Part shown: one piece after another, positions 7,416-20,756 of the stretch
Layout of the letters: each line of letters opens with the position of its first letter
Numbering within the stretch: the first letter of the stretch is position 1
Virus record (IMG/VR): IMGVR_UViG_3300042154_002276
Location: 1-21,084 of that record
From: a virus
DNA: 21,084 bases
Reading direction: 5' to 3' (one strand)
Position numbers and translations under genes: made by a program
The notes under the pieces: model-generated
Database searches by the model: none
The model's input: the letters and a program-made list of their open reading frames with translations, nothing else
What the model was told of the DNA's origin: nothing

Positions 7416-7865
7416 ATGAATAGCGAAATTAAGTCGGATAATACCGAGAAAAGAGGAAGACCAACAAAGTATTCAGATGAACTTGCAGATAAAATTTGTT
7501 ATAGAATTGCAACTTCAAAAGATGGAATACATAAAATTTCAGAAGAGTTTAATTTAGACCCTTGGACTGTTTTTAATTGGAAACACGAACATGAATATTT
7601 TTCCCACAATTACGCACGTGCTAAAGAGTTACAAGCAGAATTTTTAAAGCAACAAATTATTGATATTGCAGACGATTCAAGCGGTGATGAAATGGTCAAC
7701 GACTTAGGTCAGGTAAAAATGGATAGAGAATTTGTTGAGCGCTCTAAATTACGTGTTCAAACTCGCCAATGGTTAATGGGTAGATTAGCACCTAAAGAAT
7801 ACGGAGACAAAAAACAAGAGGAGGATACTGCTAAAGAAATTACTATTAGAGTAGTTGAGGACTAA
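7416..7865 (+). CDS. terS: terminase small subunit, 149 aa
   Basis: The small terminase recognises phage DNA and loads the packaging motor. The protein opens with the family signature RGRPTKYSDELADKIC (13-28), then a helix-turn-helix (about 37-57, ISEEFNLDPWTVFNWK), the helical oligomerisation segment YARAKELQAEFLKQQIIDIA (66-85), and the conserved ERSKLRVQTRQWLMGRLAPK region (108-127) ending in KEYGDKK. Length is typical. The gene follows the terminator, starts the late operon, and its stop codon shares a base with the large-subunit ATG. Confidence 0.87.
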   Translation: MNSEIKSDNTEKRGRPTKYSDELADKICYRIATSKDGIHKISEEFNLDPWTVFNWKHEHEYFSHNYARAKELQAEFLKQQIIDIADDSSGDEMVNDLGQVKMDREFVERSKLRVQTRQWLMGRLAPKEYGDKKQEEDTAKEITIRVVED

Positions 7866-9091
7866 TGGAATTATCTGTATCAAGACCAAAACTTCACACA
7901 GGACAAAAGATAGTTTATGATAATAAAAAAAGATTTAACGTACTCAGAAATGGAAGACGTTGGGGTAAAACAATATTATCTGTAAGACTAGCAATTGATA
8001 CCATTTTACAAGGTGGTAAGGTTGGTTATTTTGTACCTTCTTATAATTTTTGCGATGAGTTTTGGGATGAGATAAAAGATAGATTAGAATCAATTATTAC
8101 TTATAAAAATGAATCTAAATACCGTATCACTTTTAAAACAGGTGGCTCAGTTCAAATATTTTCTTTAGAAAAAAAACGTGCTGGACGTGGTAAAAAGTTC
8201 CATAGAGCAATAATAGATGAGGTTGCTTTTGTAAAGGATATGGAAACATCATGGAACAAAGCAATAAGACCAACTTTAGCAGATTATGCTGGAGATGCTT
8301 TTTTTATGAGTACTCCAGATGGATTTAATAACTACTTTCACACTTTAGATGAAAATAGTAAAAAGTTTGAGGATTGGCAAAGTTTTCATATGCCAACAAC
8401 ATCAAATCCTTTTATACTTGAATCTGAGATAGAAGAAATTAAATCACAAATAGACAGTTTAACTTATCAACAAGAGTTTGAAGCTGAATATATTAACTTT
8501 ACAGGTAATGCTTTTGCATATGCTTTCAACGATACAAAACACATTTCAAATGAAGCTGAATATTTAGAAGGTGGTACTATTTATTTATCATTTGACTTTA
8601 ATGTTGACCCAATGACTTGTAGTGTGTTTCAACATACTGCGGACTTTATTTATCAAATAGACGAATTTAGATTATCAACAAGTGATATTTATGAGTTGTT
8701 AGGACAAATTAAAGCAAAGTATTGCGATAGAGGAAACCCAATTAAAGTAACAGGCGATGCCAGTGGTTGGGCAAGAGAAAAGAGTACAAAAGGTTTAGTT
8801 TGTATGTACGATATTATTCAAAAGGAATTGGATATTTCTTTCAATAATATTGATGCACCACGTAGTAACCCAAGCCACAAAAACAATAGAGTTTTAGTCA
8901 ATTCTATTTTAGAAAAACATAAAAACGTAAAAATAAACCCTAAATGCAAAGGTACAATCAAAGATTTAATGTACGTTCAAGTTGATGCTTTCGGTAACAT
9001 TGATAAATCAAACATGGAATTAACTCACAACTTAGATAATTTTAGGTATTATTTAAACTCTTATCATTCGCAATTTTGTAGATTAATTTAG
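7865..9091 (+). CDS. terL: terminase large subunit, 408 aa
   Basis: This is the ATP-driven packaging motor with headful-cutting nuclease. Walker A-like NGRRWGKT lies at 29-36, and Walker B with catalytic Glu in RAIIDEVAF (Asp118, Glu119). The RNase H-like nuclease begins at LSFDFNVDP (Asp244, Asp248), with a second acidic site in GDASG (Asp298). The domain order is the classic terminase arrangement and the length is near the short end of the family. TAATG coupling to terS supports a two-subunit complex. Confidence 0.92.
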   Translation: MELSVSRPKLHTGQKIVYDNKKRFNVLRNGRRWGKTILSVRLAIDTILQGGKVGYFVPSYNFCDEFWDEIKDRLESIITYKNESKYRITFKTGGSVQIFSLEKKRAGRGKKFHRAIIDEVAFVKDMETSWNKAIRPTLADYAGDAFFMSTPDGFNNYFHTLDENSKKFEDWQSFHMPTTSNPFILESEIEEIKSQIDSLTYQQEFEAEYINFTGNAFAYAFNDTKHISNEAEYLEGGTIYLSFDFNVDPMTCSVFQHTADFIYQIDEFRLSTSDIYELLGQIKAKYCDRGNPIKVTGDASGWAREKSTKGLVCMYDIIQKELDISFNNIDAPRSNPSHKNNRVLVNSILEKHKNVKINPKCKGTIKDLMYVQVDAFGNIDKSNMELTHNLDNFRYYLNSYHSQFCRLI

Positions 9092-9115: not shown

Positions 9116-9460
9116 ATGAATCCACTTTGCCAAAATGGTTATGTAGCTTATCCACTTTCAAACTGTTGCGAAACGCTACAAATAAATGATTTAGATTCTG
9201 ACGATTTAGAAGCTAAATGTATAATTACTAATAGTTTAGGTAACAAACAAATATTAGATTGTACTATCTTAGATGGTACAACTGTATTAGATTTAACCGA
9301 ACTACCAAAAGGATTTTTAAGTAATTACAAGCTATATGATATAGCAATATTTGCTGAATTAAATAGTACATTACCAATTACTTATAATACTGATTATGAT
9401 TGTATTATAATTCAGTTTGTAAACACTAATCCAATAATAACAAATGAATTTATTCGTTGA
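9116..9460 (+). CDS. unknown small late protein, 114 aa
   Basis: The composition suggests a beta-rich soluble fold, with hydrophobic and polar residues alternating and many Ile, Thr and Asp. Three cysteines cluster early (Cys5, Cys17, Cys18) and others follow (35, 49, 95). No signal peptide or membrane segment. It lies between the terminase and tail genes and overlaps the membrane-protein gene by 17 bases, so a minor structural or assembly role is possible. I recognise no family. Confidence 0.6.
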   Translation: MNPLCQNGYVAYPLSNCCETLQINDLDSDDLEAKCIITNSLGNKQILDCTILDGTTVLDLTELPKGFLSNYKLYDIAIFAELNSTLPITYNTDYDCIIIQFVNTNPIITNEFIR

Positions 9461-9707
9461 TGCTATAATAGGTTTTAGTATTTCTTTAGTTATGCAAACT
9501 ATTACTGAAAATGGACATATTTTGTCGTTTTTAAATAGGTTTGATAAGTACGAAATAATAAGTAAACCTTTATGGTTGTGTAATATTTGTAGTTCATTTT
9601 GGTACACTTTGTTGGTTGTATCAATAAATCAATCAAATTATTTTTCTATTCCTATTGCAATGAGTATTAGTATATTAGTTAATAAATATTATGATAAACA
9701 AGATTAA
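9444..9707 (+). CDS. small membrane protein with CxxC motif (DUF1360-like), 87 aa
   Basis: Hydrophobic stretches near residues 4-20, 51-62 and 68-80 predict two or three membrane spans. Before the second span is KPLWLCNICSSFW, with Cys46 and Cys49. This P-x-x-C-x-x-C-x-x-x-W pattern at a membrane entry recalls DUF1360 proteins, which I offer as a resemblance only. It overlaps the genes on both sides by 17 bases. Possible roles include a holin-like or envelope-interacting protein. Function is unknown. Confidence 0.6.
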   Translation: MNLFVDAIIGFSISLVMQTITENGHILSFLNRFDKYEIISKPLWLCNICSSFWYTLLVVSINQSNYFSIPIAMSISILVNKYYDKQD

Positions 9708-10344
9708 GTCACTATTTAGCAAACCAGTTTGGCAAAAAGAAAGTCCAAAGTATGTAATTGAAAAAGCTTTTACACTTGGTGGTAAACAATACTATCACAT
9801 TAACGATTTCATAAATATTCCTTGTGAACGTGCCTTAATGGCAATTCAGTACTACAATGAAATGGAAATGAAGGTTGATAGTAAGTTTATGACTGCACAC
9901 GTTGAGGCTATTTTAGATGCTACAAATAGGGGTAAATTAACAGAAGTTGCACAACTTACACAAGATTTAAAGTATAGATTAAGTACTGTTTCAGATTATG
10001 ATACTATACTTCGTTTAGGTTCTATTATGTGGTTTGATGATAATGAAAGTCATTTAACTTATGATGAAACTTACAACGAAAAGAAAATAAAGGAGTGGAA
10101 AAAACTTAAAGTGGAGTCTTTTTTTTTGAGCGTACCATTAAAAGAATTACTACCCTCGTTAAATTTGTCAAAGGTAGATTCGGACATCTTTACGAACTTA
10201 ACGAAGGCAACATCGCAACTGAAAATAGAACAGTTAGAAAGAATTATGCAGTCAATCACGCCAAACAACAAGAACAAAGATTTGTTGAATTCTTTAGAAT
10301 TGCAAATTTCAGAGTTGAAGGAATTGATTTTGTTAAACGATTGA
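9691..10344 (+). CDS. tail assembly chaperone, zero-frame product, 217 aa
   Basis: The position directly before the tape measure gene, the length, and a probable frameshift product make this the equivalent of lambda gpG. The N-terminal 140 residues are helical and hydrophilic (for example ERALMAIQYYNEMEMKV) and would be shared with the longer product. After the run of nine T the zero frame continues for about 72 codons as a leucine-rich helical tail ending LELQISELKELILLND. In the lambda system the short form coats the tape measure during tail building and is absent from the virion. By sequence I recognise no specific family, so the assignment rests on context and the overlapping frame. Confidence 0.65.
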   Translation: MINKIKSLFSKPVWQKESPKYVIEKAFTLGGKQYYHINDFINIPCERALMAIQYYNEMEMKVDSKFMTAHVEAILDATNRGKLTEVAQLTQDLKYRLSTVSDYDTILRLGSIMWFDDNESHLTYDETYNEKKIKEWKKLKVESFFLSVPLKELLPSLNLSKVDSDIFTNLTKATSQLKIEQLERIMQSITPNNKNKDLLNSLELQISELKELILLND

Positions 10345-10403
10345 CAATATTAGAATATTTATTAGTTTTAGAAGAACTTAAGAAAAACGAATCAAAAAAA
10401 TAG
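9691..10403 (+). CDS. tail assembly chaperone, -1 frameshift product (about 237 aa)
   Basis: If ribosomes slip back one base on T-TTT-TTT (10119-10125), reading continues FFERTIKRITTLVKFV and stays open through FFRIANFRVEGIDFVKRLTI to a TAG at 10401-10403, four bases before the tape measure ATG. The last 59 bases lie beyond the zero-frame stop and would otherwise be an unexplained gap. They use ordinary codons for this genome. This mirrors lambda gpGT, where the extension binds tail tube protein. The alternative is a miscounted homopolymer in the sequence. Confidence 0.65.
10119..10127 (+). other. slippery T9 run, candidate programmed -1 frameshift site
   Basis: Nine consecutive T lie in the register TCT-TTT-TTT-TTG, which supplies an X-XXY-YYZ heptamer (T-TTT-TTT) with both tRNAs able to re-pair after slipping one base back. 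I found no convincing downstream stem or pseudoknot by eye. A TACC/GGTA pairing is too weak to count. Confidence 0.65.
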
Positions 10404-10407
10404 ATTT

Positions 10408-13383
10408 ATGGCTACTGATATAAACGTGGTAAAAGTTGAGTTTGATATTGATACAAAAGATATCACTAAAGCTCAAAAGGATTATGAAGATTTGATAAAA
10501 GATATTGATAATACTAAGTTATCAACTGATAAACTATCTGCTTCATTTGACAAAGAAACACAATCAGTAGCTTCAAATAGGGCTAAGATGCTTGAGTTAC
10601 AGGCTGAACATCGTAGGCTACAAAGTGAGATTAAAAGAACAGGCGATACTAACGGTGAACTATCAAAAAAAGCACAACAAGTAAATAAAGACTTTAAAGA
10701 AACATCTGAAAAGTTTAAAAGTGCTACTCAAAACAGTAAGCAGTTAAGCGAACAAATAAAAAGTACTAGCAAAGATAGTGGAGTTCTTTCAAGCACTATG
10801 GGAGGGCTTAAAGGTGCTATTGCTGGGGCATTTGCCGTTGGTGGTGTTATTGCGTTTGGTAGTGCAGTATTGGAAGCTACAAAGAACAACGAAACATTTG
10901 TAATGAGTTTGTCTGCTATGCTTAAAAGCAAAGAACAAGCTAATATACTAAATGCACAGTTGATTGAATTGGCTAAAAGTACACCTTTTAGTTTAGTTGA
11001 AATTCAACAATCAACACGTTCATTGATTGCTATGGGTGTTGCATCAACTGATATTTCAAAAACACTTACAATGCTTTCAGATGTTTCAGCTGGTACAGGA
11101 AATAGTATTACTGAATTATCTGAAAAATTTGGAAGGTTTAAAACACAAGGGCGTCTATATCAACAAGATGTAAATGAGTTAACAGGTCGTGGTATCCCAG
11201 TAATTGAAGAGTTTGCTAAACAGTTTGGAGTTGCTGAAAGTGAGGTAAGAAAGTTAATTGAAACGGGTAAAATCGGATTTCCTGAGGTTACTAAGGCTTT
11301 GGAGTCTATGACTGCTGAAGGTGGTAAATTCTATAAATTATCTGAACAACTTGCACAAACTACCGAAGGGCAACTATCTGCAATGGGGGATAGTTGGAAT
11401 CAGTTGTTAGTAAAAATGGGTAGTAGTACTACTGGTTTCATTAACTACACTATCAAAGGTTTTAATGCAATGCTTGAAAAAATTTCATCATTGTTTGATA
11501 CTGCTGATATGGAAGCACAAACAAGATCAGGTAAGCTATTAGAATCACAAGGAGAAGCATATAAAAATATTTATGATAGGGTTATTAAAATAGCAAAAGA
11601 AGGCAACAAAAATGTAAATGATGAATTATTAAAAACTGAAACAAGTTTATTGAATCAAAATTTAAAAAATATCAAAGATGCTGAAATTAGATTAAAAGCA
11701 ATACAAGATGATTTTAGATTAGTAAAAGATGATAATTCAGATTTAGGTAAAATAAACCCAAAAGATAAAAATATTACATCTTTAATAATTGGGGAAAATG
11801 ATTTATCTTCAGTAGGTAAAACAGGGCAAAATTATGTAGATTTATATATTAATCAATTAGCTGAATTAAATAAATTAAAAGCTGAAACTGGCATTATCAA
11901 CGAACAATACAAAGCATCTTTAAAAGATGTTGAAAATACTGAGGCTGAAATATCTAAAGCTAAAGAAGAAAGACTTAAGAAAGAAAAAAATGATTTTAAA
12001 GAGCGTTTGGCATTATTGAACGCTAGGGAGCAAGAAAGTAAAAGACTCAACGAACGTAATAAAAACGATGAAGAAAAGCAAATTGAAGGATTAAGAATTG
12101 AAGGTAGATATAACCAACAAAAGATTGATTTATACACTGAATATGCAAGGGTTTTAACCAAAATTGATAAGCAAACAAAGGAACAAATGATTGTTAGGCA
12201 AGGTGAATATCAAATTGATATTTTAGTTGCTGAGGAAACATTTTACCAAAAACAGGCACAAAAGTATTTAGAACAACAAGATAAGCTTAAGCAAATTGAT
12301 TTAGATAGAGAAACTACAAATACTGATGAGGTTTTAACTAAGCAAAAAACAATTGAGAATGAAAACTTAATTGCTATTTATAAAGAACGTAACGAAAAGT
12401 TAAAAGGATTGCAAGGTAAGGAGTTTAACGATGTTTATCAATCGTATCAAAACAAAATAACCGAAACAACTAAAAAGCATGAGGTTGATAGATTAACTAT
12501 TGAGATTCAATCATTAGAACGCAAAAAAGAACTTGGAGAAGATGAAATAAAGATAGCTAAGGAAATAAGCGATAAAAAGCTACAAATTGAAAAGCTTACA
12601 AATGACAAGTCAGAGCAAATGACTAAGGATTCAGAAGAAAAGAAACGTAGTGAACGTGAAAAAGCTTTAGCTATTTCAAGACAATTAGCTGATACATTAC
12701 TAACTATTTATAGTGAAAATTATAAACAAGATATTCAAAATCAATCTGATGCTTTAAATGTTCAACGTGAACAAGAGTTAAGTAATAAAAACTTAACTGA
12801 ATCTGAAAAAGAAGCAATTGATAAAAAATATAAAAAGTTACAATTAGATTTAAGGGTTAAGGAATTTAATTTTGATAAACAAATTAAATTAACTGAGGTT
12901 GCTATTAATACTGCTTTAGCAATTACAAAAGTAATGCCTAATCCGTTCTTAATTGCTTTAGTTTCAGGTTTAGGACTTGCACAAGCTGGAGCGATTGCAT
13001 CTAGACAACCACCTAAATATTTCAAAGGTACTGATTATTTAGATTTGAACGGTAATAAAAAAGGCATTGATACAATTCCTATTTTAGCACACGAAGGAGA
13101 AAGAATACTACCAACGGCTGATAATTTAGCAATAGGAGGTAAAGGTTTAAGTAATAAAGAACTTGTTAAGCTTGTAAAATTAGGTCAATTAGTACGTTCA
13201 GGACAATTAGAAGTAAAACAACAACAATCAAATGTAATTGTAAATGTTGATAATGCTGAATTGGTTAATGCTTATAAGAATCAACCAAAATTAGCTATTT
13301 CTATGGATGAAAACGGATATAATAAGTATCTTTACAAGCAAGGAAAAAAAACCGAATTATTGAACAAAAGATACGGTAACTAA
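10408..13383 (+). CDS. tail tape measure protein, 991 aa
   Basis: This is the protein that sets tail length and is ejected with the DNA. It has an N-terminal coiled region (about 15-120), a glycine/alanine-rich hydrophobic segment (GGLKGAIAGAFAVGGVIAFG, about 132-151), then a conserved tape-measure domain with STPFSLVEIQQSTRSLIAMG and LTGRGIPVIEEFAKQFGV. A long Lys/Glu/Gln-rich coiled coil (about 400-830) follows, then a second hydrophobic segment (about 845-865) and a C-terminal AHEGERILP element seen in many tape measures. By the usual 0.15 nm per residue, about 990 residues would correspond to a tail near 150 nm. A tape measure this long indicates a siphovirus or myovirus. No sheath gene is visible, which favours siphovirus. 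Confidence 0.92.
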   Translation: MATDINVVKVEFDIDTKDITKAQKDYEDLIKDIDNTKLSTDKLSASFDKETQSVASNRAKMLELQAEHRRLQSEIKRTGDTNGELSKKAQQVNKDFKETSEKFKSATQNSKQLSEQIKSTSKDSGVLSSTMGGLKGAIAGAFAVGGVIAFGSAVLEATKNNETFVMSLSAMLKSKEQANILNAQLIELAKSTPFSLVEIQQSTRSLIAMGVASTDISKTLTMLSDVSAGTGNSITELSEKFGRFKTQGRLYQQDVNELTGRGIPVIEEFAKQFGVAESEVRKLIETGKIGFPEVTKALESMTAEGGKFYKLSEQLAQTTEGQLSAMGDSWNQLLVKMGSSTTGFINYTIKGFNAMLEKISSLFDTADMEAQTRSGKLLESQGEAYKNIYDRVIKIAKEGNKNVNDELLKTETSLLNQNLKNIKDAEIRLKAIQDDFRLVKDDNSDLGKINPKDKNITSLIIGENDLSSVGKTGQNYVDLYINQLAELNKLKAETGIINEQYKASLKDVENTEAEISKAKEERLKKEKNDFKERLALLNAREQESKRLNERNKNDEEKQIEGLRIEGRYNQQKIDLYTEYARVLTKIDKQTKEQMIVRQGEYQIDILVAEETFYQKQAQKYLEQQDKLKQIDLDRETTNTDEVLTKQKTIENENLIAIYKERNEKLKGLQGKEFNDVYQSYQNKITETTKKHEVDRLTIEIQSLERKKELGEDEIKIAKEISDKKLQIEKLTNDKSEQMTKDSEEKKRSEREKALAISRQLADTLLTIYSENYKQDIQNQSDALNVQREQELSNKNLTESEKEAIDKKYKKLQLDLRVKEFNFDKQIKLTEVAINTALAITKVMPNPFLIALVSGLGLAQAGAIASRQPPKYFKGTDYLDLNGNKKGIDTIPILAHEGERILPTADNLAIGGKGLSNKELVKLVKLGQLVRSGQLEVKQQQSNVIVNVDNAELVNAYKNQPKLAISMDENGYNKYLYKQGKKTELLNKRYGN

Positions 13384-18115: not shown

Positions 18116-19018
18116 ATGAAAAGAGGGATAATATTAGTAGCAACAGGACATACTAATTACCCTAAGATGGCATTTAATTTAGCCTTATCGTTGAAACAAT
18201 GCGATAAGGCTATTTTAATACACTTAGTACATACAAAGGGTAATTTAACAGGTTTAACAGAATTACAAAAAAGTTATTTTGATAGCTTTACGGAACTTGA
18301 ACCAAGTTTTTACACAATTGAAGGTAAAGAGCAACACGTTTACACTAAGACAAGGGTTTACGAGTTTAGTCCATTTGAAGAAACAATCTTTTTAGATGTT
18401 GATTCTATTTGGTTACCAAAACAAGATATTAATTCATTATTTGAGAAATTCAAGCATAAAGACTTTGGATTTACTTGTTATAGTGAAAATGATGTATTCC
18501 CAATTACTAGCGAACGTAGTGTATTTTGGAATGCAGAAGGGGAATGTATTAACGATTTAAATAAATATTTCAAGTTTAAAAAAGATGCGATTTTTTATCA
18601 TATTCAAAGTAGTTTCTTATACTTTAAGAAAACAAATAAAGCTAAGGCAATATTTGAAACTGCGGAGGAAAGATTTAGAAAAAAGGATTTTGGTACTAGA
18701 GAATGGGCGAACGGTATGGGCGATGAATTTGCTTTTAGCATATCTTTAGCGTTAAACAATGTTAAAGAAGAAAAACCATATCAGCCGATATTTTGGTATC
18801 CAGCAGGTGCAAATCAAGTTAATTTGGTTGATAGAAAGAAACTCTATGAAACTTATTACTTTGTATCAATGGCTGGTAATAGATTAGGAACTGAATTAAA
18901 AAATTTCTATAATACACTTGTGTTGGTATATTATCAAAGAAGTGGTAAATTTATGACAAATTCACGTTGGGTTTGGATTGACAAATTTAATTTCTTAAAG
19001 GAAAGGCTAAAACATTAA
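18116..19018 (+). CDS. GT-A fold glycosyltransferase (GT8-like), 300 aa
   Basis: An N-terminal strand GIILVATGHT with the substrate-handling region after it, then the metal/nucleotide-sugar DxD motif in FLDVDSIW (Asp94, Asp96), are the signature of GT-A enzymes. Further along, GMGDEFAFSISLAL (about 200-213) supplies a plausible acidic acceptor/catalytic site, as in GT8 relatives. No membrane span or signal peptide, so it would act in the cytoplasm. It sits in the middle of the structural operon, between a tail protein and the portal. It may therefore glycosylate virion proteins, or alter host surface polysaccharide precursors. The target is unknown. Confidence 0.68.
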   Translation: MKRGIILVATGHTNYPKMAFNLALSLKQCDKAILIHLVHTKGNLTGLTELQKSYFDSFTELEPSFYTIEGKEQHVYTKTRVYEFSPFEETIFLDVDSIWLPKQDINSLFEKFKHKDFGFTCYSENDVFPITSERSVFWNAEGECINDLNKYFKFKKDAIFYHIQSSFLYFKKTNKAKAIFETAEERFRKKDFGTREWANGMGDEFAFSISLALNNVKEEKPYQPIFWYPAGANQVNLVDRKKLYETYYFVSMAGNRLGTELKNFYNTLVLVYYQRSGKFMTNSRWVWIDKFNFLKERLKH

Positions 19019-19022
19019 TTTT

Positions 19023-20756
19023 ATGTTACAAATAGGTTCTAAAGATTTCATTGATAAGTATATTACTCGCTATCATGATGCATACGTAAGGGATGAGCAA
19101 ATAAGACTTTACAAAGCACTTAAAAAGCATTTTAGCGGTAAATATGAGGATGTTGCAGAATTACTAACATCTTATCAACCTTCTGAGCCTGATTGGATTA
19201 AAGAATATAAAGCAAAGATTTACAGACCTATTACTAAAAAAGGTACAAGTAAAATAACTTCTGTTTTATCAAAAATTAGCCGAGCAAATGACTTTGTAAT
19301 TATAAAAGGTAATGAAAGTCCTAAAGTAGCTGATGGACAAGGTATTTACGATTATATAACCAAAGGATTTGGTAAATACAAATCTATTCAAAATTGGTTC
19401 TTTAATTACAACTTTGAAAACTTTTTGCAAGATGCAAATGGAGTTCAAGTTACAATGCCAAAGCATATTCACGAAGCTATTGAAGGAGAAATTTATGAAA
19501 TACAAGAAAGTGAATTTGTAGAGCCTTTGCCTTACTATTATTGTATTGAAGATTGTCAGTATATTGATTATGATTTATTGATTCTAAAAGAAGGAAAGAA
19601 AGTTTGGACTATTTGGGATAAAGTTAATTTATACAAGTTAGTTCAAAATGAAAAAGGACAGTATAATACCGATATTATTTGGGTTCATAACTCAGGTTAC
19701 ATACCATTTATTTATAATGGTGGAGTAATAAAATACTTAAAAGATAACTTTCTTTATGAATCTTTTATTGCTGGTATTGTTCCAGACTTTGACCAAGCAT
19801 TAGTAGAAAATACCGATAAAAACGCAGGTATTAAGATGCATACATACCTTGAAAGTGCAATTTATGGGCAACAAATTTGTATGCATTGTAACGGTCAAGG
19901 GCAAATAGAGAAAAAAATAGGAAGCTCTATAACTAGACATACTTGTAGTCATTGCGATGGTACAGGAATAGCAAAAAGTAGTACATTTGCTGATTTGGTG
20001 GTTCGACCTACTAAAGGTGGAGAAGATGCACTACCAAGTTGGGCGCCAAAAAAATATATTGATAGAAATCTTGACCCTATTAAGTTTTTAAGCGAAGATA
20101 TTAAACAACTTATTAATAGTGGTTATGATGCGGTAAACATGAGCCATTTGTCAGAAATGCCGATGAATACTAGCGGAACATCTAAGGCTTACGATTGGGA
20201 ACAAACAAATTTATTTATATTTAAAGTTGCTGATTATATTTGCCAAGTTGTATTTAAAAATATAATTAAGTTTATAAATGACCAAAGATATGGTGTGTTA
20301 TTAGGTTTAGGTAGTGAGGAGTTGAATAATCAATTGCCATTCATTACTACACCAACAAACTATGATATTGTTGGAGTTTCTGAATTAGAACAACAAATTG
20401 CATTAGCAAAACAAAACGGTATTTCTAGTTCTATTTTAGAAGAAATGGAATTGGCGTATGTTTCTAAAAAGTTTGCAGGTAACCCTAGACAAATAGCATT
20501 TCATACAAATATTATTCAGTTAGACCCTTTACGTGGGGCAACTTCAGATGATGTACTTACAATGCAATCAACAGGAGTTAGCCAAAAAACTATTATTACT
20601 CATAATTTAATTAATCAGTTTGTTACAAAAGCATTTGAGGAGATTAAAAACTTTCAAGAGTTACCATTACTGAAAAGATTTGAGATAGTAGATAAATACG
20701 CAGAAGAGTATTTGAAAGCTAACAAACCTACGTTAATACCTACGCCACAAGTATAA
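19023..20756 (+). CDS. probable portal protein with a DnaJ-like zinc module, 577 aa
   Basis: Size, helical and loop composition, and place before the head genes fit a portal, the dodecamer through which DNA is packed and leaves. No catalytic motif contradicts this. A striking insertion at 286-315 carries two CxxCxGxG units (CMHCNGQG and CSHCDGTG) separated by 14 residues, a zinc-binding pattern typical of DnaJ central domains. The following DLVVRPTKGG and SEDIKQLINSGYDAVNMS segments look like the portal core. Zinc binding is inferred from the pattern. Start ATG is four bases after the glycosyltransferase stop and the end is coupled to the next gene by TAATG. Another head-vertex protein is the main alternative. 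Confidence 0.58.
   Translation: MLQIGSKDFIDKYITRYHDAYVRDEQIRLYKALKKHFSGKYEDVAELLTSYQPSEPDWIKEYKAKIYRPITKKGTSKITSVLSKISRANDFVIIKGNESPKVADGQGIYDYITKGFGKYKSIQNWFFNYNFENFLQDANGVQVTMPKHIHEAIEGEIYEIQESEFVEPLPYYYCIEDCQYIDYDLLILKEGKKVWTIWDKVNLYKLVQNEKGQYNTDIIWVHNSGYIPFIYNGGVIKYLKDNFLYESFIAGIVPDFDQALVENTDKNAGIKMHTYLESAIYGQQICMHCNGQGQIEKKIGSSITRHTCSHCDGTGIAKSSTFADLVVRPTKGGEDALPSWAPKKYIDRNLDPIKFLSEDIKQLINSGYDAVNMSHLSEMPMNTSGTSKAYDWEQTNLFIFKVADYICQVVFKNIIKFINDQRYGVLLGLGSEELNNQLPFITTPTNYDIVGVSELEQQIALAKQNGISSSILEEMELAYVSKKFAGNPRQIAFHTNIIQLDPLRGATSDDVLTMQSTGVSQKTIITHNLINQFVTKAFEEIKNFQELPLLKRFEIVDKYAEEYLKANKPTLIPTPQV

Follow-up and report, generated by a model that had tools for sequence, protein, structure and literature searches.

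A T-run probably joins two reading frames ahead of the tape measure gene

How might a phage obtain two tail proteins from a single start codon? The question is raised by a gene in a 21,084-base IMG/VR virus record, the whole of which was analysed and is called the window below. The gene is a zero-frame ORF of 217 aa (9691-10344, + strand) made up of a shared N-terminal part of ~145 aa and a 72-codon tail, and homologues of its product were found at 47 loci. Within it lies a run of nine T (10119-10127, + strand), the sole homopolymer of at least nine in the window. The zero-frame reading around this site is GAG TCT TTT TTT TTG AGC, which puts the heptamer T TTT TTT (10119-10125) in register, followed by the zero-frame codon TTG (10126-10128). 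Past TTT TTT the zero frame continues for 72 codons and ends at TGA (10342-10344). The -1 frame extension (10125-10403, + strand) has 92 codons and closes at TAG (10401-10403), leaving a gap of four bases before the tape measure ORF. On all of these points, namely nine T in slippage register, a -1 frame open for 92 codons up to the tape measure gene and a zero frame open for 72, the coordinates agree with the initial annotation.

The -1 frame is already open from 10110, and its first ATG, GTG or TTG is codon 74 past the T run, so the -1 extension depends on a change of frame. We consider it likely that one start codon gives rise to two tail-assembly proteins by ribosomal -1 slippage at U_UUU_UUU, much as in lambda G/GT. 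Most ribosomes would stay in the zero frame throughout 9691-10344 and release the 217-aa G-like protein, while a minority would slip back one base at U_UUU_UUU (10119-10125) and go on to make a 237-aa GT-like fusion, composed of the shared 145 aa and the 92-aa -1 tail. Gene callers would give the zero-frame protein alone and miss the -1 domain.

The arrangement recurs at 47 homologous loci

The count of nine T held up in independent contigs: L001 (99.9% identical to the window) and L002 (about 92%) both keep the T9 and the two frames. More distant relatives were reached through the terminase large subunit (7865-9091, + strand; phrog_2, E=3.4e-31), which served as an anchor; the gene before the tape measure gene of these relatives is a distant zero-frame homologue. 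A scan of genome contigs with the -1 alignment gave no match, and a terminase scan took its place. Profiles of the zero-frame protein then gathered members from viral contigs and bacterial assemblies, the latter mostly labelled Bacteroidetes/Bacteroidota. The resulting family of uncultured phages, chiefly associated with Bacteroidota, comprises 47 loci, about 40 once near-identical ones are merged. The profiles and scan patterns were built on zero-frame conservation, with the patterns of the last scan lying upstream of the site, and therefore the T run did not select the loci.

Several candidates were set aside. Two weak profile matches (L155 and L156) were taken as chance, and a direct search of deposited phages with the fusion proteins gave no match. 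Overlapping gene pairs precede the tape measure gene in Leeuwenhoekiella phage Arctus_1, Tenacibaculum phage JQ and phage LS06-2018-MD05; these were not taken as homologues, since in Arctus_1 and JQ the leading protein is a member of a different tail family (phrog_6195), and the frames are not connected by a T9 site.

Whether homologues keep the site and both frames, a point raised by the initial annotation, has a clear answer. An X XXY YYZ heptamer of the kind used for -1 programmed ribosomal frameshifting, U_UUU_UU(U/C), is present in zero-frame register with both frames open at 47/47 loci, as U_UUU_UUU in 45 and U_UUU_UUC in 2. The T run is nine long in 39 loci, eight in 4, six in 2, seven in 1 and ten in 1. 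Beyond the heptamer the zero frame extends for 18-72 codons (median 55) and the -1 tail for 62-122 codons (median 97), giving an overlap of 58-220 nt (median 169). Three viral members (L183, L185, L188) have T8 rather than T9 (GAT TTT TTT T[CA]) and retain both frames. Homology of the -1 tail can be recognised at every locus except L153, a MAG in which the zero and -1 tails are both displaced by one base from the upstream frame, probably through an assembly indel.

Ribosomal and transcriptional slippage

The register of the heptamer is invariant while the length of the run varies from 6 to 10. Members with T6 (L152, CGT TTT TTC TCA; L163, GAT TTT TTC GTT) and T7 (L147) keep the architecture together with a homologous -1 tail, and taken together these two observations favour ribosomal -1 slippage. 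A downstream stem-loop or pseudoknot, or an upstream Shine-Dalgarno sequence, is common at sites of -1 programmed frameshifting but not obligatory. Neither gave a consistent signal here: the mean z-score for pseudoknot-free downstream folding was -0.04 over 27 members, and a Shine-Dalgarno motif 10-14 nt upstream occurs in few members (L142, L145, L154). In L145, which has T8, the sequence AGGAGG stands 13 nt upstream of the site, the classical spacing of a -1 stimulator, and possibly compensates for the shorter run. We infer the ribosomal nature of the slippage, and likewise its rate, which may be low because U_UUU_UUU is less shift-prone than A_AAA_AAG in E. coli (PMC5009743) and no stimulator was found.

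The same fusion would result from normal translation if RNA polymerase stuttered on the T9/A9 tract and left one extra U in a fraction of the mRNAs. Transcriptional slippage of this sort operates in Shigella mxiE and spa13 and in Thermus dnaX, where, as in the present family, access to a second frame goes through a run of about nine A or T (PMC5009743). We judge it unlikely to be the explanation here. In its favour are the modal run length of nine (39/47), more than the heptamer needs, the high efficiency of slippage by the bacterial enzyme at 9 consecutive A or T (reviewed in PMC5009743), and a codon bias directly after the site; the lack of a detected ribosomal stimulator points the same way. 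The bias concerns the codon following the heptamer, which encodes Leu in 22/27 lineages of the first set and is then always TTR (22/22), as though the length of the run were under selection. Since the mean share of TTR among Leu codons at these loci is 34%, 22/22 has P about 1e-12. However, TTR would be equally forced if the -1 frame required Phe at this position, and the Leu statistic is therefore not specific. The zero-frame exceptions (Tyr, Ser, Val and Gln) indicate that neither Leu nor Phe is strictly required. The TTR bias thus reflects either selection on run length or a joint demand for zero-frame Leu and -1-frame Phe.

Run length provides the evidence on the other side. While runs of at least 8 T are found in 44/47 loci, 3 have only 6-7, lengths at which transcriptional slippage is not expected; yet these two T6 members and one T7 member keep both frames, the homologous -1 tail and the in-frame heptamer. 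In this persistence at T6 and T7, and in the invariant heptamer register, the family differs from mxiE, spa13 and dnaX. Transcriptional slippage may act alone or alongside ribosomal slippage. We tentatively suggest, as one possibility, a double device in which the heptamer serves ribosomal -1 slippage, T9 is selected in most lineages since RNA-polymerase slippage raises or buffers the amount of fusion, and ~170 dual-coded bases would specify parts of two distinct C-terminal domains. The sites, with runs of 6-10 T, provide a ready-made graded set with which the two mechanisms could be told apart.

Both frames are constrained over the overlap

Ribosomal -1 slippage, the reading we prefer, leaves a dual-coded stretch at 10126-10344 (+ strand) in which both frames would be read. 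Comparative sequence evidence supports the site, both frames, the homology of the -1 tails and constraint in two frames. Synonymous codons were sampled at window codon usage to see how often an open overlap arises by chance. With the zero-frame protein fixed, 0/20,000 draws left the -1 frame open throughout it; with the -1 protein fixed, the fraction leaving the zero frame open was 5e-5. Therefore neither frame is open by accident. The excess of G and C at third positions that had been noticed in the overlap was also borne out: zero-frame GC3 there, at 0.44, exceeds the values upstream (0.25) and in other genes (0.11-0.24). The rise comes from the -1 frame, in which these bases occupy first positions and which itself has the profile of a normal gene (GC of 0.46/0.31/0.25 by codon position).

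The -1 tails were recognised in members that had not gone into the profile. Eight members supplied the -1 profile, which was searched against all six-frame ORFs at unseen loci and placed the -1 tails above background in 20/22 unseen members, including L153, where the tail lies in another phase. After iteration of the profile the annotated -1 tail was found in every member but L153, and in a second unseen set 16/16 tails were recognised (E 1e-8 to 1e-19). Over 399 genomes the -1 profile matched only at loci also matched by the zero-frame profile.

Third positions were compared in three independent close pairs. Upstream of the site 77/360 had changed, whereas in the overlap change was suppressed in the zero-frame reading (14/203, P=2.2e-6 versus upstream) as well as in the -1 reading (8/203, P=1.9e-9 versus upstream). 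These figures bear on the view that only the -1 frame matters past the site, the zero-frame tail being a non-functional read-out that lacks stops by chance. Such a view predicts that third positions of the -1 frame are free to vary, but they change in 8/203 cases within the overlap compared with 17/77 in the -1-only part (P=1.1e-5). It draws some support from the zero-frame tails, which fall short of the -1 tails in length and, between distant members, in conservation, and from a profile of the zero tail alone, which had little power across the family. In the window's subgroup, however, the zero-frame tail is conserved between members of ~30% identity (FFLxxPLxxLxPxL...HLD), and this conservation, together with the openness of the window's zero frame given its -1 protein, makes a purely -1 function highly improbable. 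Long dual coding is a family trait, with ~170 bases constrained in both frames, and the long dual-coded region of the initial annotation is real.

Internal initiation of the -1 frame was rejected: the -1 ORF usually opens merely 0-32 codons ahead of the T run, and in most members no start codon lies close to it. Error in sequencing or assembly, or gene decay, with a single uninterrupted frame over a true tract of 8 or 10 T, can be dismissed for the family. Homopolymer errors are common and L153 carries a one-base discrepancy, but the same split recurs in about 40 separate lineages sampled by many projects, no confident member fuses both parts in one frame, and the T9 itself is kept by two other contigs.

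Relation to frameshifted tail-assembly chaperones

With its place immediately ahead of the tape measure gene, its conserved slippery site and its two C termini, the gene fits the pattern of the lambda and P2 tail chaperones. The ORF following the site encodes a tape measure protein of 991 aa (10408-13383, + strand; Pfam TMP_3, E=1.9e-21; phrog_9959, E=2.7e-63), and PHROGs assigned the downstream ORF likewise in L033, L023 and L164 and weakly in L143; the next ORF of L057 and L151 received no such assignment. Upstream of the zero-frame ORF the window has two small function-unassigned ORFs (9116-9460 and 9444-9707) and the terminase gene, and searches of Pfam and PHROGs found no recognisable tail-tube or major tail protein gene there. 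Neither frame had an accepted match in Pfam or PHROGs, or any match among PDB sequences. AlphaFold models reached a mean pLDDT of 70 for the zero-frame protein (modest confidence) and 57 for the -1 tail (poor) and gave no informative fold match, none being significant for the zero-frame model.

The frameshifted tail chaperone proposed by the initial annotation therefore stands as regards its position and, at 47/47 loci, the slippery site and two frames, but not as regards sequence or fold, for which no match to a known chaperone family was found. We infer a chaperone role from position and architecture. If the parallel with lambda holds, the shared part would bind the product of the next gene, the tape measure protein, while the -1 tail would bring in tail-tube subunits.

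Lambda gpG/gpGT is alike in having one start, a G-like product, a -1 GT-like fusion and a place beside the tape measure gene (PMC5009743). There is no sequence match between the two systems, the shift in lambda comes close to the 3' end of G whereas 18-72 zero-frame codons follow the site here, and in the window, unlike in lambda, no gene immediately upstream is a candidate for the major tail protein. P2 gene E, which yields E and E+E' in the FETUD tail operon, likewise makes two tail proteins from one start by a -1 frameshift on a T run (PMC3931495, PMC3091744). The P2 slippery site is T6G, and P2-like relatives use T7G and T7C (PMC3931495, PMC3091744); slippage on a run of T thus has precedent, although the initial annotation had thought the pure homopolymer unusual. 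Two further likenesses are that the site of P2-like phages has no downstream RNA structure and that the P2 -1 frame has no ribosome-binding site of its own (PMC3931495, PMC3091744). Nevertheless, the proteins are unrelated by the searches made, the P2-like runs are T6-T7 whereas those here are usually T9, and E' reaches merely 37 nt back into E, against an overlap of 58-220 nt (median 169) in this family.

The second feature singled out as unusual, the long overlap, was confirmed to exceed textbook cases. In a large set of actinobacteriophages the distance from slippery site to in-frame stop averages 26 nt (PRFect paper), compared with a median of 55 codons here, and long dual-coded stretches kept over deep divergence look unusual for frameshifted tail chaperones. 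While the principle of frameshifting is known already, the protein family would be an addition to the frameshifted tail-chaperone kind. Queried with members' sequences, Pfam, PHROGs and 50,697 deposited phage records did not contain it, and in open-licence literature we found no description of the protein family, of the length of dual coding and depth of its conservation, or of the T9 preference.

Other features of the window

The gene order between 7416 and 20756 is unusual, with terminase, tape measure and tail or virion proteins followed by the portal gene at the end. The portal protein (19023-20756; phrog_7376) carries a DnaJ CXXCXGXG-like zinc-binding stretch, CMHCNGQGQIEKKIGSSITRHTCSHCDGTG, at residues about 284-318; the Pfam DnaJ_CXXCXGXG match (E=4.8e-4) is below cut-off, and such a stretch is unexpected in a portal. 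From reading the translations by eye, a 732-aa ORF at 421-2619 appears to combine a helicase-like N-terminal part with a DNA-methyltransferase-like C-terminal part (SPPF motif), and a glycosyltransferase-like protein (18116-19018; FLDVDSIW) lies amid the structural genes, directly preceding the portal gene.
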